Shown: positions 10,496-23,080 of the stretch, piece by piece
How the letters are laid out: each line of letters starts with the position of its first letter
How positions within the stretch are numbered: position 1 is the stretch's first letter
IMG/VR virus record: IMGVR_UViG_3300049825_000463
Span: 1-23,852 of that record
Source of the DNA: a virus
DNA length: 23,852 nt
Strand: one strand, 5' to 3'
Notes under the pieces: model-generated
Told to the model about the DNA's origin: nothing
Database searches by the model: none
The model's input: the letters and a program-made list of their open reading frames with translations, nothing else
Position numbers and translations under genes: made by a program

Positions 10496-11067
10496 CCTTC
10501 AATCACCCGTTCGCGAACCCGCTTCCGTGCGGCCTCGAGCCGACCTGCGAGATCGACATTGACGTTCAGGTTCGTGGAGGACGATTGCGGTCCGAAGCCG
10601 GTGCGATCCGCGCCCATCTTCGTGATCTCCATGATCTGCCCGATGGATATATCGTCCGGCGCCATTTCCATCCGCTCGGCCAAGATGTCCGCCGCGTCGA
10701 GCGCCAGGCCCGACAGCCTCGTATGAAGATCACGGTATTGCGCCGAGACATCTTCCCGGTAGAAATGCAAAAGTTCCTTGAACGCCGGATCATCTTGCAA
10801 GATGCTCACCCGCGAGGCCGAGTAGCCGCAGACAATCCCCGCCTCCCCCGGCGCCATCCCGCCCGCAAGGCTTCGGGCCAGCGCATGATGCCGCTCACTG
10901 ATCCGTTTAATCGCCGGGGCGTGGCTCCCCTTCTCTTCACCCAAAAGGGAGATGTCCGCTGCGTCCAATTCCCGCACCACCTTGGCCGACACGGTCACCG
11001 CCGCGCGCCCCCTCGTCCGCATAAGCGGGAGGTCGAGGTCTAAGGAGAGGGGCGCCATATCGTTCAT
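10492..11067 (-). CDS. Terminase small subunit-like DNA-binding protein
   Basis: 191 residues from the ATG at 11067 (MNDMAPLSL); in-frame ATGs at 11103 and 11118 would add 12 or 17 residues. I prefer 11067 because a promoter-like element overlaps the earlier starts, but ribosome sites are weak at all of them. The core ISERHHALARSLAGGMAPGEAGIVCGYSASRVSILQDDPAFKELL is a helix-turn-helix typical of small terminase subunits. It is followed by a long helical oligomerisation region (FYREDVSAQYRDLHTRLSGLALDAADILAERME). It would recognise phage DNA and recruit the large subunit. It is the first gene of the leftward unit. An alternative is a non-terminase HTH regulator. Confidence 0.68.
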   Translation of the reverse strand: MNDMAPLSLDLDLPLMRTRGRAAVTVSAKVVRELDAADISLLGEEKGSHAPAIKRISERHHALARSLAGGMAPGEAGIVCGYSASRVSILQDDPAFKELLHFYREDVSAQYRDLHTRLSGLALDAADILAERMEMAPDDISIGQIMEITKMGADRTGFGPQSSSTNLNVNVDLAGRLEAARKRVRERVIEG

Positions 11068-11098
11068 GTCGCCAGCATACCACGATCCCGCTTGCGGG

Positions 11099-11128
11099 TC
11101 CATACCTCTTTGAACCATACCGACTCAA
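11099..11128 (-). promoter_or_regulatory. Candidate leftward promoter for the virion operon
   Basis: Minus strand TTGAGT (11128-11123), 18-nt spacer, TATGGA (11104-11099). The spacer and -10 region hold two GGTATGG copies. Expected start near 11092 would give a roughly 25-nt leader before the ATG at 11067. The match is moderate, and a phage-encoded activator may be needed. Confidence 0.3.
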
Positions 11129-11258: not shown

Positions 11259-11324
11259 GAACGTGGGCGTGGGGGGTGAGGGTATGTGGTTGAAACTCGG
11301 GGATTATTTATTTTCGGGGATGGG

Positions 11325-11440: not shown

Positions 11441-11950
11441 ATGACTATTATCATTACGCGCAACTACGCCCATCGCACCTTCGGCGCCATCGGTTCGGTT
11501 GAACTGACCGCACCGTCCGGCAAATATATGCTGGATGGGAAGGAACTGCCGGAGCAATCGGTTAATCATCTGTTGACGTTCGCCCTGCAGACGTTGCAAG
11601 ACGCATACGCGGGGGCTGATGATGCGGCGGAGGCGATTGGCGCGTTCGGCAAGAAGCTGGATAAGTTGATCGCCGGAACCCTGGGCACCCGTTCGGGCGG
11701 CGATGGCGTTGATGAATTCACCACGGTCGCTCGGCAAATGATCCGCACGGCGATGAAGTCGAAACTCGGCGCGAAATCGCCGGAATGGGCCGCGTTCACC
11801 GGCCTGGCCGATGCGGATCAGAATGTCAAACTCGATGCGAACTATGCCAAGAACGAAGCGCATTTCAAGCCGTTTGTCGAGGCGAAGGTTGCGGAACGTT
11901 CGGCCGATCGGGCGCGGAAAGCGGCGATGAATGTCGGTTTCGAGCTTTAA
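11441..11950 (+). CDS. Conserved phage early protein of unknown function (169 aa)
   Basis: 169 residues with AAAGGA 7 nt before the ATG, a promoter upstream and a strong terminator 14 nt after the stop, so it is probably a single-gene transcript. The N-terminus MTIIITRNYAHR is followed by a short beta-rich part and SGKYMLDGKELPEQSVNHLLTFALQTLQDAYAGA (about residues 26-59). A helical region includes DGVDEFTTVARQMIRTAMKSK and KSPEWAAFTGL. The C-terminal part is basic (FVEAKVAERSADRARKAA) and ends VGFEL. I recall similar proteins in other phages but no function. An abundant early DNA-associated protein is a guess from expression signals and charge. Confidence 0.75.
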   Translation: MTIIITRNYAHRTFGAIGSVELTAPSGKYMLDGKELPEQSVNHLLTFALQTLQDAYAGADDAAEAIGAFGKKLDKLIAGTLGTRSGGDGVDEFTTVARQMIRTAMKSKLGAKSPEWAAFTGLADADQNVKLDANYAKNEAHFKPFVEAKVAERSADRARKAAMNVGFEL

Positions 11951-12201: not shown

Positions 12202-12220
12202 TCGTTGCCAATGGCATGGG

Positions 12221-12398: not shown

Positions 12399-12454
12399 GC
12401 AACATCGGCGGAGGTATGGCGACAACCGGCCCCGGCGACAGTAGGAGACCCAAC

Positions 12455-12586
12455 ATGCAAGACTATTGGAAACAGTTTGAAAACGGACTCACGAAGCGGG
12501 TTCGGATTATTAACGGGCAGGAAGTCGTTTATATCGGCGAAAGGCTGAAAATGATTCCGCTCGCCGATTACAAGACGACCTGCTAG
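12455..12586 (+). CDS. Small unknown protein (43 aa)
   Basis: Start set at the ATG at 12455, with AGGAG 7 nt upstream; the open frame extends further upstream but has no ribosome site there. Sequence starts MQDYWKQFENGLTKRVRIIN and ends in a Thr-Thr-Cys. Mixed helix/strand pattern with a charged N-terminal helix. No family recognised. First of a set of separately ribosome-bound tiny genes with lower GC than the virion genes. Confidence 0.6.
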   Translation: MQDYWKQFENGLTKRVRIINGQEVVYIGERLKMIPLADYKTTC

Positions 12587-12614
12587 CCGCACCGGTTTAC
12601 GAAAGGACTTAGGC

Positions 12615-12704
12615 ATGCAAATCAAATCACCCAGTGGAAAGGTATACTCCTTTTCAACCGCGCAGATTAAAGACGCGGAATCATTCTTAGATTGCGAGGC
12701 CTGA
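12615..12704 (+). CDS. Very small unknown protein (29 aa)
   Basis: 29 codons with AAAGGA 7 nt before the ATG. Sequence begins MQIKSPSGKVYSFSTAQIKD and ends FLDCEA. The strong ribosome site and position in a run of similar tiny genes support it, but length alone makes it uncertain. No family recognised. Confidence 0.45.
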   Translation: MQIKSPSGKVYSFSTAQIKDAESFLDCEA

Positions 12705-12707
12705 CTA

Positions 12708-12747
12708 GCGGGCGTAGCCCGAGCGGTTATCTCGTTCGCACCACCCC
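12708..12747 (+). other. tRNA-like 5' fragment (no closed cloverleaf)
   Basis: The sequence GCGGGCGTAGCCCGAGCGGT (12708-12727), followed by TATCTCGTTCGCACC, resembles a tRNA 5' half (acceptor strand, TA, D-stem, AGCGGTTA D-loop) joined directly to a TTCG-containing piece. No anticodon arm or matching 3' acceptor strand is present, so it is not a functional tRNA gene. It could equally be two small hairpins between genes. Confidence 0.25.
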
Positions 12748-12770
12748 ACAAACCTTGAAAGGAAATTAAA

Positions 12771-12944
12771 ATGTTCAAACTATATGCCCGCCGTGATCGT
12801 TCAGTCTATCGCGTCTTTCGCTCCGACTGGTTCGGGGATCAATTCGAAGTCATGGAATTAACCGACTTCGATAAGTTCCAGGGCTATCTCAAGCAGATTG
12901 GGCTGGAAATTGAAGTCCTCGAGGGAGATGATGAACCCATATGA
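12771..12944 (+). CDS. Small unknown phage protein (57 aa)
   Basis: 57 residues with AAAGGA upstream of the ATG. Begins MFKLYARRDRSVYRVFRSDW. The first half is basic and beta-like; the second is acidic (ELTDFDKFQGYLKQIGLEIEVLEGDDEPI). Balanced composition and a good ribosome site suggest a real gene. No family recognised. Confidence 0.6.
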   Translation: MFKLYARRDRSVYRVFRSDWFGDQFEVMELTDFDKFQGYLKQIGLEIEVLEGDDEPI

Positions 12945-13007
12945 TTCCACCTGTGAGCGGCATCCCCAAGGGCGGCCTCTCATTGATGCAATAGAGGAGT
13001 GAAAGAC

Positions 13008-13175
13008 ATGACAGAACTTGAACGAGTGTTAATAGACCGCGATGGAATGTCGCTGGAAGAGGCACGGGAGGAAATAGCCCAGGCTCGAATTGCCGTGCTG
13101 AAAGGGGAAGACCCGGAAGAGGTGCTGAACGACTGGTTTGGCCTTGAACCTGATTATATTTTCGATTTAATTTAG
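13008..13175 (+). CDS. Conserved small phage protein, LGLEPDYIFDLI type (55 aa)
   Basis: 55 residues with AGGAG about 10 nt before the ATG. The sequence (VLIDRDGMSLEEAREEIAQA, then DPEEVLNDWFGLEPDYIFDLI) follows a pattern I recall from many small phage and plasmid proteins: DRDG(M/L)S..EA, a helix, then a (G)LEPDY(I/L)(F/D) tail. Function unknown. Acidic and helical. Its stop is followed directly by the AGGAGG site of the next gene. Confidence 0.7.
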   Translation: MTELERVLIDRDGMSLEEAREEIAQARIAVLKGEDPEEVLNDWFGLEPDYIFDLI

Positions 13176-13187
13176 GAGGACTTTGAC

Positions 13188-13361
13188 ATGCAAGCCATCA
13201 TAACCCAGCCCCGGCCATCCGGCGACTATCCTCAGCGCTCCGGTCCCCGCGTCATTCAGCGTCCAACGCGGGAGCGGGTGCTGGGCGCGGCCAGGCGCTG
13301 GTCTCCGTGCCGGGTGGAACTATACGTCCCCGGCGAACCCCTCGAAACCCTTTTCCTTTAA
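13188..13361 (+). CDS. Small basic unknown protein (57 aa)
   Basis: 57 residues with AGGAGG 9 nt before the ATG. Arg/Pro-rich N-terminal half (MQAIITQPRPSGDYPQR, VIQRPTRERV), then a short segment VELYVPGEPLETLFL. Not recognised. The stop lies 11 nt before the next ATG, and the next gene's AGGAG site begins at the stop. Confidence 0.5.
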   Translation: MQAIITQPRPSGDYPQRSGPRVIQRPTRERVLGAARRWSPCRVELYVPGEPLETLFL

Positions 13362-13372: not shown

Positions 13373-13504
13373 ATGGCAACTCGTCAATATTGGACTGCAA
13401 TCCTCGCAGCCATCATCTTCGTTCTCGCCATGCACATGCTTGAGCGGGGCATCACCGGCTACGTTCAGTGCCGAGATATGCCTGGCGAGGGGTGTCCGAA
13501 ATGA
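13373..13504 (+). CDS. Small single-span membrane protein (43 aa)
   Basis: Start at the ATG at 13373 with AGGAG 7 nt upstream. One hydrophobic segment (TAILAAIIFVLAMHML, about residues 8-23) follows a short polar N-terminus, then a hydrophilic tail with two Cys (CRDMPGEGC). Probably inserted in the inner membrane. It overlaps the next gene by ATGA. Function unknown. Confidence 0.6.
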   Translation: MATRQYWTAILAAIIFVLAMHMLERGITGYVQCRDMPGEGCPK

Positions 13505-13671
13505 CCACACCACTGGATGAAGCGCGGGAAGCGCCGGGCTGTCGCTACCATCCTGACAGGCCCATTCGAGAGACATTGGACGGCGATCCGCTGTGCCAAG
13601 AGTGCTGCAATGCGTGGGTTCGTGGCGAAGGTGAAGCCGCCCTAGCCAAGCTGGAGCAAGCCGATGTCTAG
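13501..13671 (+). CDS. Small probable zinc-binding protein (56 aa)
   Basis: 56 residues. The ATG at 13501 overlaps the previous stop (ATGA). Cys14-x2-His17 and Cys32-x2-Cys35 form a CxxH...CxxC set with 14 residues between, consistent with a single zinc ribbon. The C-terminal part is an acidic/Ala helix (EGEAALAKLEQADV). It could be a nucleic-acid- or protein-binding adaptor. No specific family recognised. Confidence 0.62.
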   Translation: MTTPLDEAREAPGCRYHPDRPIRETLDGDPLCQECCNAWVRGEGEAALAKLEQADV

Positions 13672-13933
13672 AGAATACACAATCAAGCGCACGTTCGTCA
13701 TTGACGACATTACGCCGGAAGAACTGGCAACCGAGTTTCTGTGCATGGACGCTGAGAAACAGGCTGCATTTTTCAACGCCATGAAGGCCGAAACCGACAC
13801 ATGGCCGGGCGCGGGGTGGTGCCGGCAATGCTGCTCGATGTCCGAATATCTCAAACCAAGCGGAATCGAAACTATTGCCAAGTTAGCGGACTGGGCCGCT
13901 GATCCATATCGCAGAGATCAAGCCGATGGATGA
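13664..13933 (+). CDS. Conserved phage protein, DDITPEELA type (89 aa)
   Basis: 89 residues, overlapping the previous gene by 8 nt. Contains TFVIDDITPEELATEFLCMDAEKQAAFFNAM (about residues 10-40), a pattern seen in short phage proteins in which the phrase 'F..MD...QAAFFN' recurs. A WCRQCC (about 52-57) could be a partial metal site. The C-terminal helix has ETIAKLADWAADPYRRD. Function unknown. Confidence 0.65.
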   Translation: MSREYTIKRTFVIDDITPEELATEFLCMDAEKQAAFFNAMKAETDTWPGAGWCRQCCSMSEYLKPSGIETIAKLADWAADPYRRDQADG

Positions 13934-14297
13934 TGTAGCGAAGGTGGCTGCGGCTGAGTGCGGTTGCCGATACACTCCGGCATACTCTGGTCGCTGCGGG
14001 AGACTCATTTCCGAAAGTGGCTTCTGTAAGGCGCACACCGGGATTAAGTGTGGCGTTTGCGGTGAGCAGGCGACTAACGAATGCAATCACACAGGGCAGT
14101 TCGTATGCGGCTTTAGGCTGTGTAACAACTGCGAAGGCTTCAACGATCAAAGCAAGTCGAGCGGGTCGTGGGGTTTTATGAACCACAGTCACCAGCGCAA
14201 GCCGGTCGAACGTCGCGCGCATCCAGAGCCTCGCTCTATGGTCGCCGCTGACATTGGTCTCGCCAACCACCTCAAGGAGCAACCCAATGCCCGATGA
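13926..14297 (+). CDS. Cysteine-rich zinc-finger-like phage protein (123 aa)
   Basis: 123 residues; overlaps the previous gene by 8 nt. Ten Cys in the first 70 residues: Cys12, 14, 24, 34, 42, 45, 53, 61, 66 and 69, with His37 and His55. The block CGVCGEQATNEC..TGQFVCGFRLCNNC resembles a treble-clef/B-box-like double zinc site, preceded by another small Cys cluster. The remainder (residues 72-123) is basic and likely disordered. Probably binds protein or nucleic acid; target unknown. Confidence 0.65.
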   Translation: MDDVAKVAAAECGCRYTPAYSGRCGRLISESGFCKAHTGIKCGVCGEQATNECNHTGQFVCGFRLCNNCEGFNDQSKSSGSWGFMNHSHQRKPVERRAHPEPRSMVAADIGLANHLKEQPNAR

Positions 14298-15225
14298 ACT
14301 TAAGCTTGCCGTCGAACTGGCTTGCAAGATCGTCCTCGAATACGGCGAAGGCGCTGAGCGTGAGCACAACGCTGCTAAGCTAGGTGCGCTCTGGTCGGAT
14401 CACCCTGTTGTTCAAGGCATTCTCGCCGCATGGAACCAGCGCCCCGATGGCAGCCGTAGCAGGGGGCAGCCGGTTGGGGGTGGATTAGACTTTCAGCAAG
14501 GCGTTGATGCTTGGATGAACGCATGTTTCGGCGATGCGATCAAAGCAGATCAGCTTGAGCGAGCAGACCGCTTCATTGAGGAAGCGTTGGAATTGGCGCA
14601 GGCTATGCCGGAGTTCAACGCTTCCCGCGCTCACGCTTTAGTCGATTACGTGTTCAGTCGGCCAATCGGCGAGCCGTTGCAAGAGGTCGGCGGGGTAATG
14701 GTCACGTTGGCCGCTCTCTGCAACACCGCCGACATTCGCATGGACTATGCCGCCGCCACTGAACTGGCGCGCGTATGGACCAAGGTTGACCAGATCAGGG
14801 CCAAGCAAGCCGTTAAGCCTACGGGTTCGGCGTTGCCTATCACAGCCCTCGCACGGCCCGACACCGGGATGGTGGGGGAGTTGGACGAGGACTGGTTCGA
14901 GGAAGTCATCAGCGACAGTCTCGAAATGGACTGGCGACCGCGCGATGCAGCCCGGCTGATTATGGAATGTCTCGCCCTTCGCCAGCCCGCCAGCGATCCC
15001 GTATTCACGCCCGAGGAAGAAGCCGAACTGGTCGATCAAATCAACGGCAGCTATTACTTACAGCCGAACCCTCCCGCCAGCGATCCGGAGGATGTGGAGC
15101 GGGTGGCGCGGGCGATATTCCGGTGCGACTTTGTCTTCGATGAAGATGAAGCAATCGTATCGACGCGCGAGCATTCGCTGCGCCAAGCCCGAGCCGCCAT
15201 CGCAGCCATGAAGGAACAGCCATGA
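14287..15225 (+). CDS. Multidomain protein with a MazG-like NTP pyrophosphohydrolase domain
   Basis: 312 residues from the ATG at 14287 (AGGAG 7 nt upstream), not the earlier in-frame start at 14254. Three parts are visible. Residues 1-55 are helical (LKLAVELACKIVLEYGEGAEREHN...). Residues 67-176 look like a MazG/all-alpha NTP-PPase domain: ERADRFIEEALELAQA (91-106, with the ExxxE metal helix), EVGGVMVTLAALCNTADI (133-150) and a third helix ending VDQIRAKQA. Residues 195-312 hold another helical domain containing two ASDP linkers and DVERVARAIFRC...ARAAIAAM. MazG-like enzymes hydrolyse NTPs, or (p)ppGpp in some phages. Substrate unknown. The longest gene of the accessory run. Confidence 0.7.
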   Translation: MPDELKLAVELACKIVLEYGEGAEREHNAAKLGALWSDHPVVQGILAAWNQRPDGSRSRGQPVGGGLDFQQGVDAWMNACFGDAIKADQLERADRFIEEALELAQAMPEFNASRAHALVDYVFSRPIGEPLQEVGGVMVTLAALCNTADIRMDYAAATELARVWTKVDQIRAKQAVKPTGSALPITALARPDTGMVGELDEDWFEEVISDSLEMDWRPRDAARLIMECLALRQPASDPVFTPEEEAELVDQINGSYYLQPNPPASDPEDVERVARAIFRCDFVFDEDEAIVSTREHSLRQARAAIAAMKEQP

Positions 15226-15392
15226 CCCTCGCAACAACCATCCTGGCCCTCGTCGGCGCTGCGCTGGTCGCGCTAGGCCATCCGAAGCCTGAGAAATGGC
15301 AACAAGGGCGCAGGCTGTTCATCGGAGCGTTCTGGCTTGGAATGGCAATGATTGTTGGCGCGCTTGGCGTCGGAATTTGGGAGATATTGTGA
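15222..15392 (+). CDS. Small two-span membrane protein (56 aa)
   Basis: 56 residues, ATGA overlap with the MazG-like gene. Two hydrophobic segments: TLATTILALVGAALVALG (2-19) and FIGAFWLGMAMIVGALGVGI (33-52), joined by a basic loop (PKPEKWQQGRR). A hairpin with both ends likely on the same side. The stop shares one base with the next ATG. Function unknown. Confidence 0.6.
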   Translation: MTLATTILALVGAALVALGHPKPEKWQQGRRLFIGAFWLGMAMIVGALGVGIWEIL

Positions 15393-15565
15393 TGGCCATT
15401 CGATTGTTCTGTCTGATGCTACTGGCATTCACCGTGGCCTTATGGTCCACGGTGCCGGGCTACAAGTATCTGCTGCCGCTGGCTCATCTCGCCATGCACC
15501 TGTTCTTTGCCGTAGGTTGTAGCGTCTTTGTTTATGGCATCATCACAGGAAAAGCACCGTCATGA
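15392..15565 (+). CDS. Small two-span membrane protein (57 aa)
   Basis: 57 residues. The ATG at 15392 overlaps the previous stop by one base (TGATG). Hydrophobic segments at about residues 4-21 (RLFCLMLLAFTVALW) and 34-52 (AMHLFFAVGCSVFVYGI). It is adjacent to another membrane hairpin of equal size, so the two may act together. No holin-specific feature or nearby lysin is visible, so I do not call it a holin. Confidence 0.58.
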   Translation: MAIRLFCLMLLAFTVALWSTVPGYKYLLPLAHLAMHLFFAVGCSVFVYGIITGKAPS

Positions 15566-15936
15566 CCCTCCCCCGCCGCCTTAAAACAGGCGAGCCGAGC
15601 GGGCAGCGCGAGCTGCTGCGCAAAGCCTACAACAGAATCCATGGCCCTTTTCAAGTTCGGGGCGGTGAACCCGGCTGTTACTTGGCCAACAAGCGCGCAA
15701 GTAACTTTCTCATCCTACTCAACATCGGCACCAACGAAGCGTTTCTCGGCGCGGCGATGATGCTTCGGCCAGATGGCTGGAAACTTGCCCTGATCCAATC
15801 AGACCACGATTGGCTTGTTGAAGCCGTGCAGATCGGCATAGATTATGACGAAGGCTTTGTGAGCCAAGGCAGCACCGCAGCCTACGCTTATGCCGCAGCC
15901 TGCATCCGCGCGAAGGGGGTGAGCCATGCTAAGTAA
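15562..15936 (+). CDS. Unknown phage protein (124 aa)
   Basis: 124 residues, ATGA overlap with the preceding gene. Mixed alpha/beta pattern: a basic N-terminus (RRLKTGEPSGQRELLRKAYNR), a beta-rich centre (CYLANKRASNFLILLN, LGAAMMLRPDGWKLALIQ) and an Ala-rich C-terminal helix. No family recognised, no catalytic motif. Confidence 0.55.
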   Translation: MTLPRRLKTGEPSGQRELLRKAYNRIHGPFQVRGGEPGCYLANKRASNFLILLNIGTNEAFLGAAMMLRPDGWKLALIQSDHDWLVEAVQIGIDYDEGFVSQGSTAAYAYAAACIRAKGVSHAK

Positions 15937-16114
15937 TGAACGCCCTTTGACAGCCGCGATGGACAACGTGCTGGCATGGCGTCTCGGCGAAGCCTGCAAC
16001 GCGGCCCACGCTGAAACTGCCGGCGACCTGATTGATCGAGGGCTTGCTCTGCGAAAGCAGCTCGAAGATCGCGGATTTCACACCATCGCCTACAAACCGG
16101 AGCCGACCCCATGA
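15926..16114 (+). CDS. Small unknown protein (62 aa)
   Basis: 62 residues overlapping the previous gene by 11 nt. Largely helical (MDNVLAWRLGEACNAAHAE, then AGDLIDRGLALRKQLEDRGF) with a short Pro-rich end. It shares its last 4 nt with the next start. No family recognised. Confidence 0.5.
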   Translation: MLSNERPLTAAMDNVLAWRLGEACNAAHAETAGDLIDRGLALRKQLEDRGFHTIAYKPEPTP

Positions 16115-16341
16115 CGAATGAAACCGAAGCCCGCGCGCTGTGTGAGCGGTTGCGGAAACTTAACCGACAACACCCCGATGCTGATGTCATGCCCTTCAAA
16201 GAAGCAGCCGACACAATCGAAGCCCTGCTCGCCGAGATTGCAGACTTGTATCGCGACATTGGGATCAAGCGCAAGAAGCTGGAGGATGCTGACAAGGCGA
16301 AGGTGGTGGCTTGGCTGGAGGCGCAATCATGCTCGATATAG
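16111..16341 (+). CDS. Small helical protein (76 aa)
   Basis: 76 residues, ATGA overlap. Heptad-like helices: ARALCERLRKLNRQHPDA, then FKEAADTIEALLAEIADLYRDIGIKRKKLEDADK, suggesting a coiled coil. The pattern 'A..I..L..EI..L' is common in small phage proteins; function unknown. Confidence 0.55.
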   Translation: MTNETEARALCERLRKLNRQHPDADVMPFKEAADTIEALLAEIADLYRDIGIKRKKLEDADKAKVVAWLEAQSCSI

Positions 16342-16388
16342 CAAACGCAATCGAGCGCGGCGAACACCTGAAAGGGGCCGGGCAATGA
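16329..16388 (+). CDS. Possible 19-residue peptide
   Basis: Open frame MLDIANAIERGEHLKGAGQ with the ATG inside the end of the 76-residue gene and its stop overlapping the next ATG (ATGA). It may only serve to couple translation across the gap. Too short to support on its own. Confidence 0.25.
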   Translation: MLDIANAIERGEHLKGAGQ

Positions 16389-16570
16389 CAAAGCGCAAAC
16401 GTATCAAGCGGCTGTCGAAAGAGCAGCGCGAGGCCGCGTGGAAGCCGATTGAGACAAACGCAGGTATGGGATGGACTAGCCGATACGGCAGTCCCGCCGA
16501 TCCGTTGGATTACGAACGTGGCAAACCTGTTGAGTATGACCCATGGGAAGGACCGGACGATGAGCGATGA
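16385..16570 (+). CDS. Small unknown protein with a basic N-terminus (61 aa)
   Basis: 61 residues from the ATG at 16385 (overlapping the tiny upstream frame). Starts MTKRKRIKRLSKEQREAAWK and ends in an acidic PWEGPDDER. A strongly basic start and acidic tail; probably helical at the front and disordered after residue 25. Not recognised. Confidence 0.5.
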   Translation: MTKRKRIKRLSKEQREAAWKPIETNAGMGWTSRYGSPADPLDYERGKPVEYDPWEGPDDER

Positions 16571-16652
16571 ACAGGCTGGGGTTGTGGATCAGATGGCGGC
16601 GGCTGAAATCCGCGCGCTTGCTGTGAACCCTACCTCACAATCGCCCTTGTAA
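16560..16652 (+). CDS. Very small unknown protein (30 aa)
   Basis: 30 codons. The ATG at 16560 has GGAAGGA 7 nt upstream and overlaps the preceding gene by 11 nt. The central part (VVDQMAAAEIRALAV) is helical. It ends at a promoter and looks like the last gene of this sub-operon. Confidence 0.4.
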   Translation: MSDEQAGVVDQMAAAEIRALAVNPTSQSPL

Positions 16653-16675
16653 TCCAACCTCATCCATGCTATGAT
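16647..16675 (+). promoter_or_regulatory. Sigma-70-like promoter inside the small-gene run
   Basis: TTGTAA (16647-16652), 17-nt spacer, TATGAT (16670-16675), 24 nt before the ATG at 16699, which has its own AGGAG site. It sits in the only gap of this part of the gene run, so it probably starts a second accessory transcript. Confidence 0.5.
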
Positions 16676-16698
16676 ACAATCATCATAGGAGTCCCGAC

Positions 16699-17043
16699 AT
16701 GCAATGTAAAATCGAACTAGCTGCCGGAGGTGAACTTCTCCTCACCACACCGGACGGGCGAGAGATACTTCTCCAACCCATCCCCACTGCCCTCGCCCTT
16801 CTTCAACGCGTTCTCTACCATGCGGAACAACACGCCAGCCCGCTCGCCTTCCCAACCCAGCACGTAATCAACGCCTGGAACAAGGGCCGCCAGATCGACT
16901 GGTCGGCACAGGAACCAGCGGTTAAGCGGAGGGTGATCGGCGACGCGCCACGCTCGACTCGGAAGGCTAAGCCAACGCTGAAGGCCTTCGGGCACGAGAA
17001 GAAGCTCGGCCCTGATCTTTCACTGATCGAGTTTGAACTGTGA
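16699..17043 (+). CDS. Unknown protein ending in a DLSxxEFxL motif (114 aa)
   Basis: 114 residues with AGGAG 7 nt before the ATG. Beta-rich start (CKIELAAGGELLLTTPDGREILL), a helix TALALLQRVLYHAEQHA, then FPTQHVINAWNKGRQIDW and a basic linker. The last residues GPDLSLIEFEL match the end of the next gene. The shared ending suggests a common interaction tail. Function unknown. Confidence 0.6.
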   Translation: MQCKIELAAGGELLLTTPDGREILLQPIPTALALLQRVLYHAEQHASPLAFPTQHVINAWNKGRQIDWSAQEPAVKRRVIGDAPRSTRKAKPTLKAFGHEKKLGPDLSLIEFEL

Positions 17044-17291
17044 CCCCCGACGAGCAGGAAGCCGGTTCCCTCAAATGGGAGCGCGGCGGTTCCGTAACAA
17101 TCCGGCAGCTACGTTCCGGGAACTTCGCCATGTATCAGATCGGGGGGATTGGCTCCCCGTTCTGGATCGGACCGCCGGAGGAATTGTTTGAAGCATACGC
17201 TGCCCGGCCGGAAGTTGTCTATCCCGTCCACGTTCCCCTGGTCACGAAGGTGGCCGGACTGGACCTTTCAAAAGTGGAGTTTACGTTATGA
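17040..17291 (+). CDS. Unknown protein ending in a DLSxxEFxL motif (83 aa)
   Basis: 83 residues. The GTG start at 17040 overlaps the previous stop (GTGA). Beta-rich core (SVTIRQLRSGNFAMYQIGGIGSPFWIG), then a helix EELFEAYAARPEV. The C-terminus LDLSKVEFTL mirrors that of the preceding gene although the bodies differ. Confidence 0.55.
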   Translation: MTPDEQEAGSLKWERGGSVTIRQLRSGNFAMYQIGGIGSPFWIGPPEELFEAYAARPEVVYPVHVPLVTKVAGLDLSKVEFTL

Positions 17292-17458
17292 TTGTCTATG
17301 TAATAATGGGAAACGATTATCCCGACTCCGTTTTTACTTCCGAGAATAAGGCAAAAGTCTATGTTAAGCGGAAAAATGCTAAAGATAAAAAGGAATTTCC
17401 TCATTGTCGCATTTTCTGGCGCTTATACCCATTTGATCTTGACGGAAAAGCTGCATGA
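17288..17458 (+). CDS. Small AT-rich phage protein, VYVIMGNDYPDSVFTSE type (56 aa)
   Basis: 56 residues, ATGA overlaps at both ends. Begins MIVYVIMGNDYPDSVFTSEN, then a Lys-rich helix, and ends FWRLYPFDLDGKAA. The combination 'V.MGNDYP..VF.sE..A..Y' with 'R(I/V)(Y/F)WR(L/V)Y.FDLDG' recurs in small phage proteins of unknown function. The gene is far richer in A/T and Lys codons than both neighbours, with borders matching the gene ends, so it looks recently acquired. Confidence 0.65.
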   Translation: MIVYVIMGNDYPDSVFTSENKAKVYVKRKNAKDKKEFPHCRIFWRLYPFDLDGKAA

Positions 17459-17790
17459 TCCCCAACTCCTACCCCATCTGCGATTGGCACATCAACTCCC
17501 GTTGGCCGAACGCCCCGGAACTCCTCGGCCCGATCCCGACCTACCTCTCGCCGAAAATTGCCGACCCCGCCTGGATGCAATTTCGTGACCATGCGGAGCT
17601 AGGTTGGAACCCGGAGCCGTCCGGCTGGTGGATGCTCGCCGACCACTACCTGCAGCAGGGAACGGATCGTCCGCTCGAGCCGGTTGCCTTCACCGCCCTG
17701 CATGACGAGGGAGTGTATGTTTACCTCGCCGGCTACGTTTGCGTTGTGCGGGCGTCCGGTGAGTTTACTGTTGCAAAGGTGTTCTCATGA
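17455..17790 (+). CDS. Unknown protein, Trp- and Tyr-rich (111 aa)
   Basis: 111 residues, ATGA overlap. Contains YPICDWHINSRWPNAPELLG, AELGWNPEPSGWWMLADHYL and a beta-rich end VYVYLAGYVCVVRASGEFTV. High aromatic content suggests a folded domain. Not recognised. Confidence 0.55.
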   Translation: MIPNSYPICDWHINSRWPNAPELLGPIPTYLSPKIADPAWMQFRDHAELGWNPEPSGWWMLADHYLQQGTDRPLEPVAFTALHDEGVYVYLAGYVCVVRASGEFTVAKVFS

Positions 17791-17987
17791 TCTTCCAACC
17801 CGGCATGGAACTCCTCTTCGACTACGGCCCGATCGACAACTTCCAGATCGAGCGGGTTCGTTACCAAGGGATTTCCCAAGATGAAACAGGCTGGCGAATG
17901 CTCGGCTGGAACATCAACGCCCAGCGGGTGCAGCGATACGCACTTCCCCTCATCCGCAAGGTAATTGTTTTGAAAGGCCCTCGATGA
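17787..17987 (+). CDS. Small unknown protein (66 aa)
   Basis: 66 residues, ATGA overlap. Beta-rich (MELLFDYGPIDNFQIERVRY, MLGWNINAQRVQRYALPLI), no cysteines or catalytic motif visible. Not recognised. It runs into the next gene through another ATGA. Confidence 0.5.
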   Translation: MIFQPGMELLFDYGPIDNFQIERVRYQGISQDETGWRMLGWNINAQRVQRYALPLIRKVIVLKGPR

Positions 17988-18343
17988 AAAAACCCCAGGC
18001 CAACCGACTCGGCATGTATGCTGATGTCCGCGCCATCCTCGACCAAGCCCTCGCAGCCGGTGGCGGCTCCTACGCCCTAGCCTCCCACGGAGCAGCCGTC
18101 CATTGGCGCCAGCGCGCCTACCGTTTCCGCAAGTTATTCGCAGAAATCCTGGGCGACGGTAAGCCATCCCCCTACGACTCGATTGTCATGACTCGCGTCG
18201 ATGCCGACTCCTCAACCATTAACATTTTAATCCGGCAGATCACAGGGACGTTCGTGCCTTCTTCCGAGCCGGCCTACCTTCCCGCAGTCGAGGACGATCT
18301 GCTCGACATAGCCCTCGGCCTTGCCGATAAACTAGGAGACTGA
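17984..18343 (+). CDS. Conserved phage protein, HGAAVHWRQRAYRFRK type (119 aa)
   Basis: 119 residues, ATGA overlap. The N-terminal half (MYADVRAILDQALAAGGG, then HGAAVHWRQRAYRFRKLFAE) has a helix, a Gly-rich turn and a basic helix; I recall this pattern from other phages without a known function. The second half is beta-like (YDSIVMTRVDADSSTINILI). The basic helix could bind nucleic acid. Confidence 0.6.
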   Translation: MKKPQANRLGMYADVRAILDQALAAGGGSYALASHGAAVHWRQRAYRFRKLFAEILGDGKPSPYDSIVMTRVDADSSTINILIRQITGTFVPSSEPAYLPAVEDDLLDIALGLADKLGD

Positions 18344-18345
18344 AC

Positions 18346-18639
18346 ATGCCTACCTACAGTCAGCGTGCTCAAGCGATCGTTGATCGCGTGCTGCCGAAGC
18401 TGCCCGACGAACCCACTCCGCACGGATTTTACGCTTTCGGAGCCTTCGTGGACAAGGCTATGCGCCACGGAAAGCACACGCGAGCGCGCCAGGTTCTTTA
18501 CTACCGCACGCTGGCGAGGCTTCGCGCCAAGGCCGAGGGAGGCAAGCCTTATTTGAAGCTGCCCCAAGGATCGTCGCACCTTTACGGACCGGGCGATGCA
18601 CTGTTTGACGTCGCTAGGGAACTGGAGTTAGCGGCATGA
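18346..18639 (+). CDS. Unknown basic protein (97 aa)
   Basis: 97 residues with AGGAG 7 nt before the ATG, 2 nt after the previous stop. Helical: YSQRAQAIVDRVLPKL, FGAFVDKAMRHGKHTRARQVLYYRTLARLRAKAEGG, then a C-terminal ALFDVARELELAA. Strongly basic middle. Not recognised. Confidence 0.52.
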   Translation: MPTYSQRAQAIVDRVLPKLPDEPTPHGFYAFGAFVDKAMRHGKHTRARQVLYYRTLARLRAKAEGGKPYLKLPQGSSHLYGPGDALFDVARELELAA

Positions 18640-18842
18640 CCAAAGGCACCGCCTGCAAGGCCCGCCTGTTGGCCGAGATATTCCGCGAACGCCCGCTGTG
18701 GAAGCAGGGTTTCAGCGCGCACGTCAAGGCGTGGGAGCGTTGGTCAGCAAGTCAATCCATGCGCCTGTTCGTCAACAATCCCGCTTTCCGTGCCGAATAC
18801 CATGCGCGCGGCGGGCAACTGGAGTTTGCTAGCTATGACTGA
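18636..18842 (+). CDS. Small unknown protein (68 aa)
   Basis: 68 residues, ATGA overlap. Basic helical front (ACKARLLAEIFRERPLW), Trp-rich middle (AHVKAWERWSASQSMRLF) and a short hydrophilic end. Not recognised. Confidence 0.48.
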   Translation: MTKGTACKARLLAEIFRERPLWKQGFSAHVKAWERWSASQSMRLFVNNPAFRAEYHARGGQLEFASYD

Positions 18843-19161
18843 AGAACTACCCCCGCTGTGGGCGCTCGATATGGCCGCGAAGGCTGTTGGATACGCGGAT
18901 TGGTCGGAATATGACGAATTCCAAATGAAAACCGCAACCCGTGACGCGCGCTCTAGCTGCATCGCCCACGCCCGCACCCTTGTACGCCTTGCCAAGCACG
19001 AGCCGGATATTGTGCCGGTTGATGAGGATGCGGAGGCTTTGCTGGACGTTCTGGGAATATGGAACGGGCTTACGACGGGAAGAAACCGGAACTGGAAAAG
19101 TTTCCCCGCCGCCCTCGCTCAATTCAAGGCCGAACTGGCCAAACGGGAGCAATCAAAATGA
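18835..19161 (+). CDS. Unknown protein (108 aa)
   Basis: Start at the ATG at 18835 (MTEELPPLWALDMAAKAVGY), overlapping the previous gene by 8 nt; an earlier in-frame ATG at 18790 lies deep in that gene. Helical segments RSSCIAHARTLVRLAKHEPD and AALAQFKAELAKREQ with a DEDAEALLDVLGIWNGL between. Not recognised; ATGA to the next gene. Confidence 0.5.
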   Translation: MTEELPPLWALDMAAKAVGYADWSEYDEFQMKTATRDARSSCIAHARTLVRLAKHEPDIVPVDEDAEALLDVLGIWNGLTTGRNRNWKSFPAALAQFKAELAKREQSK

Positions 19162-19331
19162 CCAGCATTCGCAAAACCGGCAACCGCTTCACGCATGAAG
19201 TCGGCAGGGGCTATCAGCGCGCCAGTCGCAACGGGGGCAGGTTCGACGAACCGCCGCTCAACCGCTGGATTATCATCTGCCCGCCGCTCGCTATCGGGCT
19301 GTTCCTGGCTACTGTGGAGATACTGCGATGA
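19158..19331 (+). CDS. Small single-span membrane protein (57 aa)
   Basis: 57 residues, ATGA overlaps on both sides. A basic polar N-terminus (IRKTGNRFTHEVGRGYQRAS) precedes one hydrophobic segment WIIICPPLAIGLFLATVEIL (37-56). The positive-inside rule suggests the N-terminus is cytoplasmic. Function unknown. Confidence 0.55.
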   Translation: MTSIRKTGNRFTHEVGRGYQRASRNGGRFDEPPLNRWIIICPPLAIGLFLATVEILR

Positions 19332-19717
19332 ACGAGATAACCGATGAAGGCCAGCGGCTTGCGGCTGATCTGACGAACGCTGAGGACCTGGTCCCGACTT
19401 GGTGTGCAGGCGACTTTGGCCCGAACTCCCCGTCAGTGCGCCTCGCCCTCTACCGCCTCTGCACCCGCTTCCTCGCTATGGAAGCTGATATGCGGGAGAT
19501 TGGGCATTGGACGGACACTAATCAGAACCGCGACATTGATTTCCAGGGCCGGTGGTCTGCCATTCAGTCCATCGCAGCCCCATACCGGATAGTTGAGACG
19601 GACCCGCTGATTGAGGCTTTGGAAGCGATCAGCGTATCCATTAATGCGCCGGTTTTTGCAGAAAAGCTCCGCGCCGAACTCGCCAAGCGCGGCATGGAAC
19701 TAGGGGAAGCGAAATGA
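19328..19717 (+). CDS. Unknown protein (129 aa)
   Basis: 129 residues, ATGA overlap. Mostly helical: ITDEGQRLAADLTNAEDL, SVRLALYRLCTRFLAMEADM, then DPLIEALEAISVSI and a C-terminal EKLRAELAKRG. A single Trp-Cys (TWCAGD) and no motif. Not recognised. It is the last gene of the coupled run before the helicase. Confidence 0.5.
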   Translation: MNEITDEGQRLAADLTNAEDLVPTWCAGDFGPNSPSVRLALYRLCTRFLAMEADMREIGHWTDTNQNRDIDFQGRWSAIQSIAAPYRIVETDPLIEALEAISVSINAPVFAEKLRAELAKRGMELGEAK

Positions 19718-19753
19718 ACGACGCCAACCTTACCGCTATCATGGAGTATTGAT

Positions 19754-21196
19754 ATGACCCGTGACATGCAACTAACTCCCGAGCAGCTAGCCTGTATCGA
19801 CTTCGCCCGCGAACAGCCCGACAACCTCCTCATCTCCGCCTTAGCCGGTGCCGCGAAGACCACCACCCTCGTCGAGTTAGCCAAGGCCCTCCCCGACGTC
19901 TCCATGCTCTGCCTCTCCTTCAACAAGAAGATTGCAGTTGAAATGCAGGAACGCCTCCCCAACAACTGCACGGCCATGACGCTTAACTCCCTCGGCCACC
20001 GCGTTTGGTCCGAGGCAACGGGCCGCCGCATCGCGATCGACTCTGGTAAGACCTATAACCTCGTCAAGGAAGCGATCGAAGAGCAAATCGGCACCGACCG
20101 CTCCACCCTCTACGAACAGATGGCAGAGCTTATGCAGATCGTCGACTTCGGAAAGGCCTGCGGTTACATACCCACCGGCACCCACGAGCGGGCGAAGCGC
20201 CTCTACGACGACGACTTCTTCCAACACATTGAGCAACAGCTATCCCCGCTCGCCCAGGACCTCGTCCGTGACGTTACTCTGCGATCGCTTAAGCTCGCCT
20301 TCGAGGGCAAGTGCGATTACAACGACCAAATTCTCATGCCGACCGTCTTCCACGGAGCCTTCCCTCGTCACCCGCTCGTCCTAGTTGACGAGGCCCAGGA
20401 CCTGTCGGCGCTAAATCACGCCATGCTGCGGAAGCTGGCGAAGAAGCGGTTAATTTGTGTGGGTGACACCTGTCAAGCCATCTACGGCTTCCGAGGTGCG
20501 CACGAAGACGGCATGACGAAACTCAAGACCGATTTCTCCATGACCGAGCTAACCCTAAGCGTCTCCTTCCGTTGCCCGATCGCGGTCGTAAAGCACGCCC
20601 ATTGGCGAGCGCCGCATATGAAGTGGCCGGAGTGGGCGACGCAAGGTTCCGTTACTTTCCTCGACTCGTGGCGCGCGTCCGACCTCGCCGAGAACGCTGC
20701 AATCATATGCCGAAACAACGCACCGCTATTCGGCATCGCAATTCGACTGCTCAAAAACGGCCGCCCCGGCCAGCTCGATGGCAAGGACATCATCACCTCG
20801 ATCACGAAAGTCATGCGAAAGTTCGGCGGGAGTGACATGCGGCAAGCCGATGTGCTTGACAAGATCGACTCGTGGGAGGCGCGGGAAAAGGAAAAGAACA
20901 AGCGCCGAGCGCATGGCCGGATTGAAGACCGCGCCGAATGTATGCGGATATTTGCGCGGGAAGGGGAGACGCTTGCCGACGGCCTGGCCTACGCGCAACA
21001 CCTGTTGCACTTACACAGCCCCCTCAAGCTAATGACCGGACACAAGGCAAAGGGCCTGGAGTTCGAGCATGTCTACTTCCTCGATCAAAAGTTGGTGGGA
21101 AGTGAAGACCAAGACCCGAACCTTCGTTACGTGATTATCACGCGGGCGAAGGAGACGCTGACATATATTAACTCGAAGGAGTTTTGTGATGGATGA
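19754..21196 (+). CDS. UvrD/Rep-type superfamily 1 DNA helicase
   Basis: 480 residues with GGAG 7 nt before the ATG. SF1 motifs in order: Q-motif region (LTPEQLACIDFA, 7-18), motif I SALAGAAKTTT (28-38, Lys35), Ia-like SFNKKIA (55-61), motif II VLVDEAQDL (209-217), motif III ICVGDTCQAIYGFRG (234-248), IV-like LSVSFRCP (268-275), V MTGHKAKGLEF (427-437) and VI LRYVIITRAKETL (457-469). The P-loop has Ala-Ala where UvrD has Gly-Thr-Gly, a variant seen in phage helicases. Shorter than cellular UvrD (about 720), with reduced 1B/2B regions. ATP-driven unwinding in phage replication or recombination is inferred. Confidence 0.92.
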   Translation: MTRDMQLTPEQLACIDFAREQPDNLLISALAGAAKTTTLVELAKALPDVSMLCLSFNKKIAVEMQERLPNNCTAMTLNSLGHRVWSEATGRRIAIDSGKTYNLVKEAIEEQIGTDRSTLYEQMAELMQIVDFGKACGYIPTGTHERAKRLYDDDFFQHIEQQLSPLAQDLVRDVTLRSLKLAFEGKCDYNDQILMPTVFHGAFPRHPLVLVDEAQDLSALNHAMLRKLAKKRLICVGDTCQAIYGFRGAHEDGMTKLKTDFSMTELTLSVSFRCPIAVVKHAHWRAPHMKWPEWATQGSVTFLDSWRASDLAENAAIICRNNAPLFGIAIRLLKNGRPGQLDGKDIITSITKVMRKFGGSDMRQADVLDKIDSWEAREKEKNKRRAHGRIEDRAECMRIFAREGETLADGLAYAQHLLHLHSPLKLMTGHKAKGLEFEHVYFLDQKLVGSEDQDPNLRYVIITRAKETLTYINSKEFCDG

Positions 21197-21416
21197 AATC
21201 GAATGCCCTGATTGCGAGGGCCACGGGTGGACGCACGGGGGTCTTACTGAGTGCACGGCCTGCAAAGGCAAGGGCTGGCGCGAACCGACCGAAGAGGAGG
21301 CCAACACTTTGGCAGAGGCTGCATATGATCGCCAGTTTGAAGACGAACCGCCGATGAGCTTTGCCGAGCGCACTGAAATGCAGGCTAAACGCGATGCACA
21401 ATGGGGCGCAGCATGA
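21189..21416 (+). CDS. DnaJ-type zinc-finger small protein (75 aa)
   Basis: Start at the ATG at 21189, with AAGGAG 7 nt upstream, inside the last codons of the helicase; a GTG at 21186 is less well placed. Two CxxCxGxG repeats (Cys6/Cys9 CPDCEGHG and Cys22/Cys25 CTACKGKG) would bind one zinc as in the DnaJ central domain. The rest is acidic and helical (EEEANTLAEAAYDRQ). Translationally linked to the helicase, so perhaps a partner; no J-domain is present. Confidence 0.72.
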   Translation: MDEIECPDCEGHGWTHGGLTECTACKGKGWREPTEEEANTLAEAAYDRQFEDEPPMSFAERTEMQAKRDAQWGAA

Positions 21417-21465
21417 TATGGCCCATTTCCCTTGGCAACCATATGGCCGCCCCTCACATTCCCCA

Positions 21466-21494
21466 TTGACACATACCGCCCCAATCCGTATCAT
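21466..21494 (+). promoter_or_regulatory. Strong sigma-70-like promoter
   Basis: TTGACA (21466-21471), exact 17-nt spacer, TATCAT (21489-21494): the best consensus match in the window. It would give a leader of about 30 nt with AAAGGA before the ATG at 21532. A CATACC motif starts directly after the -35 box, and TATGGC-like copies lie at 21418 and 21441. Confidence 0.7.
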
Positions 21495-21531
21495 CACCGG
21501 GCGCACCGTCGCATAACCAAAGGAAACCAAA

Positions 21532-22029
21532 ATGCCCAAGCTGATCAATGGAGTTGCCTACGAGATTTCCCAGCCCTACGCTGAAGGCCATGTTGTTACC
21601 GAAGCTGAAGCCCGTGTCCTCAACCAGACCAGGGCCGAAAACATCGGCAACAACCTGCGCGCAAAGCTGAAAGAACAGGCGGAAGCCGGTGCTTCGACCG
21701 AAGTCCTCGCCGCCCTCGTCTCCGAACTCGACTCGACCTACGTCTTCACCCTGGCCGGCGCTCGCCAGTCGCGCCAGCTCGATCCCTACGAGCGCGAAGC
21801 CACGAAGATCGCTCGCGAGATGCTCAAGACCCACCTCGGCGAGTCGGGCCGGAAGCTCACCGTGGCTCCCGAAGGCCTCACCAAGGAAGAGTGGGAAGAG
21901 AAGGTCGAAAGCGAAGTCGATCGTATCGCGGCGCTCGATGCCGTGGTCAAGGCCGCTCGCCAGCGGGTCGATGCGAAGAAGAAGCAGGCGGATAGCCTGA
22001 TGGAAGCGCTGGCCGACGCTTCGCTCTAA
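21532..22029 (+). CDS. Conserved phage protein of unknown function (165 aa)
   Basis: 165 residues with AAAGGA and a strong promoter upstream. The N-terminus MPKLINGVAYEISQPYAEGH is followed by EAEARVLNQTRAENIGNNLRAKLKEQ (about residues 24-49), a pattern I recall from many phages without assigned function. The remainder is charged and helical (LTKEEWEEKVESEVDRIAAL, VVKAARQRVDAKKKQADSLM), perhaps a coiled coil. Its isolated strong promoter and downstream hairpins suggest high expression, like the 169-residue protein at 11441. A DNA-binding or structural early protein is possible but not shown. Confidence 0.75.
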   Translation: MPKLINGVAYEISQPYAEGHVVTEAEARVLNQTRAENIGNNLRAKLKEQAEAGASTEVLAALVSELDSTYVFTLAGARQSRQLDPYEREATKIAREMLKTHLGESGRKLTVAPEGLTKEEWEEKVESEVDRIAALDAVVKAARQRVDAKKKQADSLMEALADASL

Positions 22030-22067
22030 ACGTTCCTCCGCGCGGGTTGCACTTCGCGGAGTTCGGT

Positions 22068-22102
22068 GCCCCTCCCCTGTATTGCATGTCCGGGGGAGGG
22101 GC
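22068..22102 (+). terminator. GC-rich hairpin (terminator-like, no T-run)
   Basis: GCCCCTCCCC (22068-22077) pairs perfectly with GGGGAGGGGC (22093-22102), loop of 15 nt. It lacks a T-run, so it may be an RNA stabiliser or part of a switch with the next hairpin rather than a terminator on its own. Confidence 0.55.
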
Positions 22103-22120
22103 ATTACCGTGACAACAGAT

Positions 22121-22168
22121 GAGTCTCCGGGGTCGCCCCCTCCCCTACCCCGGAGGCTCTTCTATTTT
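22121..22168 (+). terminator. Probable intrinsic terminator or attenuator
   Basis: GAGTCTCCGGGG (22121-22132) pairs with CCCCGGAGGCTC (22148-22159) as a 12-bp stem with one G-T pair, followed by TTCTATTTT (22160-22168). The loop carries CCCCTCCCC (22137-22145), complementary to the 3' arm of the preceding hairpin. Confidence 0.65.
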
Positions 22169-22182
22169 CATGGAGACCTACA

Positions 22183-22491
22183 ATGACCACAATCCAATGC
22201 ACCCTCGCCGGCGCCAACTTCCGCCCGGGCGAGGCTCGCACCGTTTGCAAGTCCCTTCAAATCGGTGAAACCGCGATGCTCGAGACGGATGGCGATAACC
22301 CCTACGACTCAAACGCCGTCCGTGTTATCGCCCAGGACGAGTTCATCGGCTTCGTGCCCAAGTCGGACAACGCGCCGATCTTTGCGGCCCTCGAACGCGG
22401 CGAGGAAGTGACGGTCGAAATCATCGGCTTCGAGTCGTCGATCAAACCGATCCTCGAGATCACCTTGTCGGACGAGTTGAACTTCGAGTGA
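22183..22491 (+). CDS. Stand-alone HIRAN-domain protein
   Basis: 102 residues with GGAG 7 nt before the ATG. The whole protein fits a HIRAN domain: LAGANFRPGEAR (8-19), IGETAMLETDGDNPYDSNAVRVI (27-49, with the hallmark (D/E)xxNPxDxNAV), FIGFVPKSDNAPIFAALERGEEVTVEI (54-80). HIRAN domains (as in HLTF and bacterial relatives) bind DNA ends, especially 3'-OH single-stranded ends at stalled forks. In phages they often appear alone. Its location downstream of the helicase and upstream of a nuclease suggests a fork or recombination role. The next gene starts inside its stop (GTGA). Confidence 0.85.
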   Translation: MTTIQCTLAGANFRPGEARTVCKSLQIGETAMLETDGDNPYDSNAVRVIAQDEFIGFVPKSDNAPIFAALERGEEVTVEIIGFESSIKPILEITLSDELNFE

Positions 22492-22700
22492 GCCTTGCGT
22501 TCACCGAAATCCTCTACGACGCAACCCGTTCCCCGTTCGGCCTCGTAGTCGAGACCTCCGACCCCGAGCGTCTCCGCCAGCGCCTCTACGCCATCCGCAA
22601 GGACAACCCGGATTTTTCCGCTCTCGCCTTCGTAATATCCCCCTTCAATCCCCGCGATCTCTGGGTCCTAAACCGGACCGGAAAGGACTCCCATGAGTGA
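22488..22700 (+). CDS. Small unknown phage protein (70 aa)
   Basis: 70 residues with a GTG start at 22488 overlapping the HIRAN stop. Sequence LAFTEILYDATRSPFGLVVETSDPERLRQRLYAIRK, then DFSALAFVISPFNPRDLWVLNR: an alternating strand-helix-strand plan that recurs in phage early operons without known function. Coupled to both neighbours, so likely part of the same functional set. Confidence 0.62.
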   Translation: MSLAFTEILYDATRSPFGLVVETSDPERLRQRLYAIRKDNPDFSALAFVISPFNPRDLWVLNRTGKDSHE

Positions 22701-23069: not shown

Positions 23070-23080
23070 GAACCCTCGAC

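Follow-up and report, generated by a model that had tools for sequence, protein, structure and literature searches.

A run of small overlapping genes upstream of a UvrD-like helicase

The virus record IMGVR_UViG_3300049825_000463 of IMG/VR was analyzed over its entire length of 23,852 bases (here called the window), and this study concerns a run of 22 small open reading frames (ORFs), encoding 30 to 312 amino acids (aa), which occupies positions 13501-19717 of its + strand. ORFs are referred to by their first coordinate. The window gave no nucleotide match among 50,697 phage records, and a scan for Rfam families and tRNA found none. Its minus strand carries packaging and structural-type genes, among them 6564-8078, whose protein is at most 47% identical to annotated large terminase subunits of cultured phages, and 10492..11118, named here small terminase subunit gene from its place beside TerL, which serves as the anchor on the far side of the run. 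From 12455 onward all called genes lie on the + strand, and the conserved anchor downstream of the run is a UvrD-like helicase (19754..21196; Pfam UvrD, phrog_1967).

The coupled stretch begins one gene before the run, with a 43-aa membrane-type protein with one transmembrane segment (TM) (13373..13504), and extends through the helicase into 21189-21416. Three Cys-containing ORFs open the run itself: a 56-aa Cys/His protein with CxxCC (13501..13671), an 89-aa protein with a homologue in Microcystis phage Mvi-Yong1342-1 (13664..13933), and a 123-aa Cys-rich putative zinc protein (13926..14297). They are followed by a 312-aa protein (14287..15225), in which residues ~62-186 resemble a divergent MazG-like core and the N- and C-terminal tails have no family match, by two two-TM proteins of 56 aa (15222..15392) and 57 aa (15392..15565), by a 124-aa orphan (15562..15936), and by two small orphans (15926-16114 and 16111-16341). 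A candidate 19-aa mini-ORF (16329..16388), preceded by the Shine-Dalgarno (SD) sequence GGAGG and without homologue in the 87 related loci described below, bridges 16111 and 16385, and two more small orphans (16385-16570 and 16560-16652) close the first half of the run. The sole sizeable gap of the run, 46 nt long (16653..16698), coincides with a weak promoter-like TTGTAA-17-TATGAT at 16647-16675, with TG ahead of the second hexamer. Beyond it lie a 114-aa protein (16699..17043) with weak relatives in three of the loci (L018, L022, and L023), an 83-aa protein (17040..17291) with one relative (L018, 48%), a 56-aa AT-richer orphan with weak PHROG matches (17288..17458), a 111-aa protein (17455..17790) whose family has 23 profile matches in 20 loci, a 66-aa orphan (17787..17987), the 119-aa member of a near-core family (17984..18343), three orphans (18346-18639, 18636-18842, and 18835-19161), a 57-aa one-TM protein (19158..19331), and a 129-aa orphan (19328..19717). 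A candidate 12-aa mini-ORF, possibly there by chance (19714..19752), bridges the run and the helicase.

Overlaps were found at 18 of the 21 internal junctions of the run (11 of 4 nt, three of 8 nt, three of 11 nt, and one of 1 nt, TGATG), the three others being spaced by +43 nt at 16385, +46 nt at 16699, and +2 nt at 18346. When both mini-ORFs are counted, the chain from 13373 to the helicase has 25 junctions, namely 14 of 4 nt, eight with overlaps of other lengths, and three spaced by 46, 2, and 1 nt, and ORFs, mini-ORFs included, cover 6204 of the 6252 nt (99%) of 13501-19752. These counts confirm a first, sequence-only reading of this DNA, which had described about 22 small genes with nearly all junctions overlapping and, among them, three membrane proteins, which are 15222, 15392, and 19158. 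In place of its two zinc-binding proteins, three Cys-containing ORFs were seen here, of which 13926 encodes the putative zinc protein.

The overlaps and frames were then assessed. ATGA ends 16 of 25 gene stops; among the other + strand stops within 13-20 kb, it ends 27 of 166 (binomial P ~1e-7). A few of those 16 come from overlaps of 8 or 11 nt, where the start of the following gene lies further upstream. On the minus strand of the window, by a hand count from the gene list, three of 12 junctions overlap (18/21 versus 3/12, Fisher P 0.0009). That the run consists of spurious ORFs in noncoding or wrongly framed DNA is, in our judgment, very improbable. In its favor, a codon model trained outside the run ranked the assigned frames of 13501 and 13926 second of six, the mini-ORFs are candidates only, and the gene caller missed 15392, 17040, and 17288 and started 13926 late. 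On the other side, the same model ranked the assigned frame first for 23 of 25 ORFs, a ranking that counts as support rather than proof because its in-frame stop penalty favors the assigned frame, and homologues exist for 13664, 13926, 14287, 16699, 17040, 17455, and 17984.

The layout of the run is kept among relatives while its genes are replaced

We assembled 87 related loci (L002-L088), 86 of them through the helicase (the best 80 of 161 in one search) and one, L019, through 14287, and searched the window proteins in their six frames (phmmer, E below 1e-3). The genes downstream of the helicase, 21532, 22488, 22693, 22872, and 23521, are present in 77, 69, 73, 70, and 77 loci, respectively, about 76-84 loci reaching so far. 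Because the loci, L019 apart, were found by the helicase alone, this conservation was not built in by their selection. For 17 of the 22 run genes no homologue was detected in the 87 loci; the others are 14287, found in one locus (L019, itself recruited by 14287), 16699 in three, 17040 in one, 17455 in 12, and 17984 in 35. A profile of the 17984 family, made from 10 members including that of the window, extended it to 67 of 87 loci, 41 times upstream and 26 times downstream of the helicase. The sequence-only reading had taken the run for accessory genes; this is well supported by the 17 genes without homologue, with the exception of 17984, which is near-core rather than accessory because its family occurs in 67 of 87 loci.

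The site itself is at a fixed place. Of the 30 loci whose upstream DNA measures 8.4 kb or more, 22 carry a minus-strand homologue of 10492 upstream of the helicase, 4.7-9.8 kb away from it (8.6 kb in the window), and the run site is flanked by conserved genes there, as in a hotspot.

Junctions in the relatives were taken from a gene caller without coupling bonus, in 85 loci and the window, near-duplicates included and L017 and L019 excluded. For the + strand, 419 of the 1056 junctions located upstream of the helicase were exactly 4 nt (40%) and 62% overlapped, versus 212 of 1031 (21%) and 46% downstream (Fisher 1e-21 for the 4-nt frequency); for the minus strands of the loci, the values were 15% of 121 junctions and 40%. 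The difference remained when the window and near-duplicates were dropped, with 364 of 920 upstream versus 200 of 959 downstream, and the 4-nt fraction was higher upstream in 45 of the 51 loci with at least six junctions on both sides.

Gene content behaves in the opposite way. In the dereplicated set of 73 loci and the window, from which 12 near-duplicates (L005, L014, L025, L027, L030, L043, L050, L051, L052, L057, L059, and L077) had been removed, 59% of 1044 upstream proteins versus 21% of 816 downstream proteins had no homologue in any other locus, with a median of 0 versus 43 other loci with a homologue. For proteins of 40-150 aa alone, these fractions were 58% and 30%; spurious short ORFs may inflate the orphan counts on both sides. 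Sharing of genes between loci fell with helicase identity from 0.48 upstream (12 ordered pairs) versus 0.75 downstream (16) at identities in the 80s, through 0.22 (29) versus 0.70 (65) in the 70s and 0.17 (139) versus 0.70 (238) in the 60s, to 0.02 (2143) versus 0.46 (3465) in the 40s. Gene turnover between relatives is high at this site, the second mark of a hotspot. Where DNA homology could be followed in 17 pairs of loci, 15% of 177 homology ends lay at most 5 nt from a matching gene edge, versus 3% at random (query and subject ends double-count), and 54% lay more than 50 nt away from a gene edge; the ends at gene edges are what would be expected of whole-gene exchange. Expansion by paralogy was considered and dropped, as no pair of run genes matched (BLASTP, E 0.1), and a likeness of 18346 to 17984 noticed by eye was not upheld.

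Single run genes occur in phages with other backbones

Homologues of run genes were also found outside the helicase-bearing group. Microcystis phage Mvi-Yong1342-1 holds the core of 14287 (73% over 117 aa) and, about 0.7 kb from it and with the order of the two reversed relative to the window, a homologue of 13664 (58% over 77 aa); both belong to a tight gene row with overlaps at nine of 13 + strand junctions. The window helicase and terminase have no match in the whole Mvi-Yong1342-1 record, and because this phage shares two run genes without them, run genes move between backbones. Relatives of 13926 occur in four viral contigs of 44-47 kb, which gave no match to the window helicase or terminase either; in one of these contigs (L123) eight of 12 junctions are 4-nt, and in the other three only one or two of 14-18.

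In tblastn searches of phages, 13926 and 13664 matched two records each (E 0.01) and 14287 matched 78 records, none covering 80% of it (E 1e-5), while at E 0.01 no match was found for 17984, 17455, 19328, 15562, and 17040. Scans of viral contigs, which detect close relatives only, found no relative of 15562 and 19328. A scan of genome contigs gave six loci, all of them distant or fragmentary, from which no firm host emerged.

Junctions of the runs resemble those of termination-reinitiation

In studies of prokaryotic gene pairs (PMC6728339, PMC10666635), strict coupling is reported for 13 of 14 tested pairs, the commonest junction distances are -4, -1, and -8, with -4 the commonest across 1,695 prokaryotic species, and coupling is nearly lost at a distance of about 20 nt. 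The runs of the relatives follow the same rank order, with 419, 94, and 49 junctions at -4, -1, and -8. Ahead of the 4-nt junctions, the composition of 393 junctions revealed a G/A-rich SD motif at -12 to -8. The runs combine a dominance of 4-, 1-, and 8-nt overlaps with an SD within the 3' end of the upstream gene, as in termination-reinitiation; an SD of at least 4 nt is lacking at a few junctions of the window, for instance 13926 and 17040. Promoter and terminator scans were near chance, with nine promoter-like sites in 11-22.3 kb versus 5.1 expected (sd 2.3) and 14 terminators versus 12.5 expected (sd 3.4).

Across loci, the upstream neighbors of homologous run genes are mostly nonhomologous (783 pairs versus 49). 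Where the neighbor had been replaced, the probability that the homologue has a 4-nt junction was 0.51 if the gene itself has one (n = 136) and 0.50 if not (n = 138). We had considered that a gene's own ATGA start might give a stop to any insert upstream, so that the junction would travel with the gene as a docking site, and this idea was rejected. The 4-nt overlap is as common after replacement as elsewhere in the runs and is therefore re-formed after it, through either selection or packing.

Protein content of the window run and of its relatives

Family matches of the window's run proteins in Pfam, PHROGs, and, for nine of them, NCBIfam were next to none. The 14287 protein had been called MazG-like by the sequence-only reading. 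MazG-type metal motifs, which we take to be EExxE followed by ExxD, are half present: the first is kept as FIEEALEL, with the three Glu invariant in five of five aligned proteins, and the second reads QEVGGV or QEAGGV (ExxG), with Gly at the place of Asp in all five. The protein has a weak match to phrog_715 (E 0.12) and none in Pfam (E up to 1), NCBIfam, or PDB sequences. Because of the ExxG motif and the lack of a Pfam match, we do not file it as MazG, and from its sequence it would be a divergent MazG-like core without the canonical Asp of the second motif. The MazG-type all-alpha nucleoside triphosphate pyrophosphohydrolases of phrog_715 have EExxE in common with this core, and differ from it in that their ExxD is replaced by ExxG in 14287.

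Structure searches, which had been proposed for each gene, were made with confident models of 17984 and 17455 and gave no clear match. The model of 17984 (predicted local distance difference test, pLDDT, 92.6) had a best VIA Z of 4.2, Cdc13/Stn1 and SpoVS being tied, and no Foldseek match in PDB at E 0.001; for 56 members of its family, Pfam gave nothing at E 0.01 and PHROGs only one weak match. The model of 17455 (pLDDT 93) had no match in PDB or BFVD at E 0.001. For predicted models such as these, a lack of structural matches would not amount to new folds.

From the 733 run proteins of the relatives, we scanned 262 of at least 60 aa, with the 17984 and 17455 families excluded, made up of 150 random proteins and the 112 remaining ones of at least 130 aa; Pfam was used for all and PHROGs for the 112 only. 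Pfam recognized 23 and 22 families in the two sets, mostly AAA ATPase, ligase, helix-turn-helix, HNH, and DUF, and including DNA ligase, DUF7768, antitoxin-like, Ead/Ea22, Imm5-like, and one RTX-repeat match. PHROGs added clamp-loader-like and deoxyribosyltransferase matches, among 25 of 59 families listed. This content looks like an early, non-structural, accessory mix.

Flanks of the run

Between the two anchors, outside the run, a 169-aa gene (11441..11950, + strand) with homologues in nine relatives is followed directly 3' by a terminator-like hairpin of 11 pairs and a T run (11964-11989), which parts it from the run. It lies between two clusters of GTATGG/CCATAC, a sequence present in 17 copies in the window versus 5.85 expected; 12 of the 17 flank 11441-11950 (11100-11347 and 12087-12419), two of them in the 5' end of 10492 and the rest intergenic. 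In the flanks of the 11441 homologue in the nine relatives, GTATGG was counted six times each in L086 and L039 and zero to three times in the others. These clusters are possibly operator or origin repeats. The small lead-in ORFs 12455, 12615, 12771, 12931, 13008, and 13188 (12455..13361, + strand) have no homologues in the 87 loci and are spaced from each other, with the sole exception of 12931, which overlaps 12771. This 23-aa mini-ORF (12931-13002) encodes CERHPQGRPL, which by eye is like the start of the 13501 Cys protein (CRYHPDRPI).

Downstream, within 21189..23850 of the + strand, a Zn-finger-like ORF without homologue in the 87 loci (21189-21416) is followed by the conserved genes 21532, 22183, 22488, 22693, 22872, and 23521, of which 22183-22491 encodes a HIRAN-domain protein (Pfam E 6e-9) found in 37 loci and belonging to the conserved downstream module. 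An ORF that is HNH/AP2-like by eye (23081-23524), with a lower third-position GC (0.43), lies between 22872 and 23521, and it looks like an insertion because in L002 only about a dozen bases part the counterparts of 22872 and 23521. In the helicase homologue of L016 (8396-10738), an in-frame insert of about 280 aa separates GDA from CQAIYGFRG, with the same split in L017; by its ends (it starts with Cys and ends with HN before Cys), the L016 insert carries what we take to be an intein-like signature. In L018 (10640-10903), helicase residues 390-477 lie on the opposite strand right after residues 5-202, by inversion or assembly error.

Discussion

We read the run as a polycistronic and mostly coupled island of hypervariable accessory genes, which keeps a fixed place in a group of environmental tailed phages and whose products are likely early and host-directed, and give this reading a probability of about 0.62. 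The island lies between divergent packaging and structural genes and a helicase-led conserved module, a position that fits early expression, and it would be read as one or two polycistronic messages, with a possible break at 16653-16698. A ribosome finishing one small gene would restart at the overlapping start of the next, aided by an SD that lies within the 3' end of the gene before it. In the course of evolution, replacement would affect about one gene at a time, partly from phages of other backbones, and the tight overlap would be re-formed after each replacement. By analogy, the products would likely serve mainly in host takeover and counter-defence, and they may also include a near-core replication-side factor, 17984. 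The site probably serves to swap host-directed proteins in and out and does not represent a novel type of machine.

Several observations weigh against this reading. Compared with Pfam and PHROGs (E up to 1), the 22 run proteins gave no named anti-defence or takeover family, no PADLOC search having been made, and nine of them compared with NCBIfam gave no named anti-defence family. Where run proteins of the relatives could be recognized, several proved to be enzymes of nucleic acids or nucleotides (AAA, ligase, clamp-loader-like, and deoxyribosyltransferase) and not takeover proteins. The minus-strand 10492 anchor was not found in eight of the 30 loci that reach 8.4 kb or more upstream of the helicase, junction type is not inherited with the gene and shows no sign of conserved coupling for particular pairs, and compaction alone could give overlaps, as short overlaps are common in prokaryotes.

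A narrower version, which we hold as tentative, would make the run a dedicated arsenal site, in which pooled single-gene counter-defence and takeover proteins are swapped and the stop-start chain is selected so that every newcomer is expressed immediately, its dose being fixed by a single entry point upstream. Considerably less probable than the island reading is pure compaction, where genome-size pressure and a 4-nt bias would leave neutral genes mixed with junk, which have no special role and do not need coupling; the prevalence of -4 across prokaryotes, the lack of inheritance of the overlap type, and the 46% of overlapping junctions downstream all speak for it, but exact 4-nt overlaps reach about double their downstream frequency in these genomes, the fraction is higher upstream in 45 of 51 loci taken singly, and the frames retain the phage codon bias. 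That the run is a replication-side auxiliary operon, encoding subunits of small DNA-replication or nucleotide-metabolism complexes whose stoichiometry is set by coupling, seems unlikely: the breadth of the 17984 family and the enzyme matches just named agree with it, as does the enrichment of overlapping pairs for heteromeric complexes stated in PMC10666635, whereas the turnover of most run genes is faster than obligate partners in a complex would allow and, as the 783 pairs versus 49 indicate, these genes mostly change their upstream neighbor. We regard late or virion-associated proteins as a very improbable identity. In Achromobacter phage vB_Ade_ART, the feature that covers one distant tblastn relative of 13926 carries the annotation "virion structural protein"; the run is divergent from the structural strand and joined to the helicase, and among its 22 proteins no virion family was found in Pfam and PHROGs. 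Late expression as virion parts or matches to nothing but housekeeping enzymes would have refuted the sequence-only reading, and neither was encountered.

The contrast between layout and content has practical use, as it offers a homology-free rule for candidate host-directed phage genes in metagenomes, which is to look upstream of the UvrD-like helicase. The site also supplies many natural neighbor replacements beside the same gene, by which it becomes testable whether stop-start coupling is selected or a by-product of packing. If the arsenal version were true, most of the several hundred locus-specific run proteins would be host-directed proteins still to be discovered, and the 17984 family would be a new factor of replication or regulation whose fold has not been described.

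Early leading regions of the T7 and T4 type contain many small, little-conserved takeover genes. The run has many small, little-conserved genes on the early side in common with them, and differs in that no known takeover protein was found in it. The hotspots of P2 and P4, as described in PMC9122126, are likewise small regions of high turnover between two conserved phage genes; they are about 1-5 kb long and include tested anti-phage systems, whereas here about 4-10 kb of tiny overlapping genes, with no recognized system, lie in an uncultured phage. With the termination-reinitiation operons of Huber et al. (2019, PMC6728339; 2023, PMC10666635), the run shares the 4-, 1-, and 8-nt overlaps and the internal SD; the systems of those studies are cellular gene pairs, often complex subunits, whereas here neighbors change between relatives and the overlap is re-formed. 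Our literature searches, within their own range, returned no paper that we recognized as being on this phage group. In conclusion, a variable phage hotspot is a kind of region already known, and the present analysis adds a measurement of how, in one phage group, a coupled layout stays fixed while the genes turn over fast, together with the unnamed near-core 17984 family.

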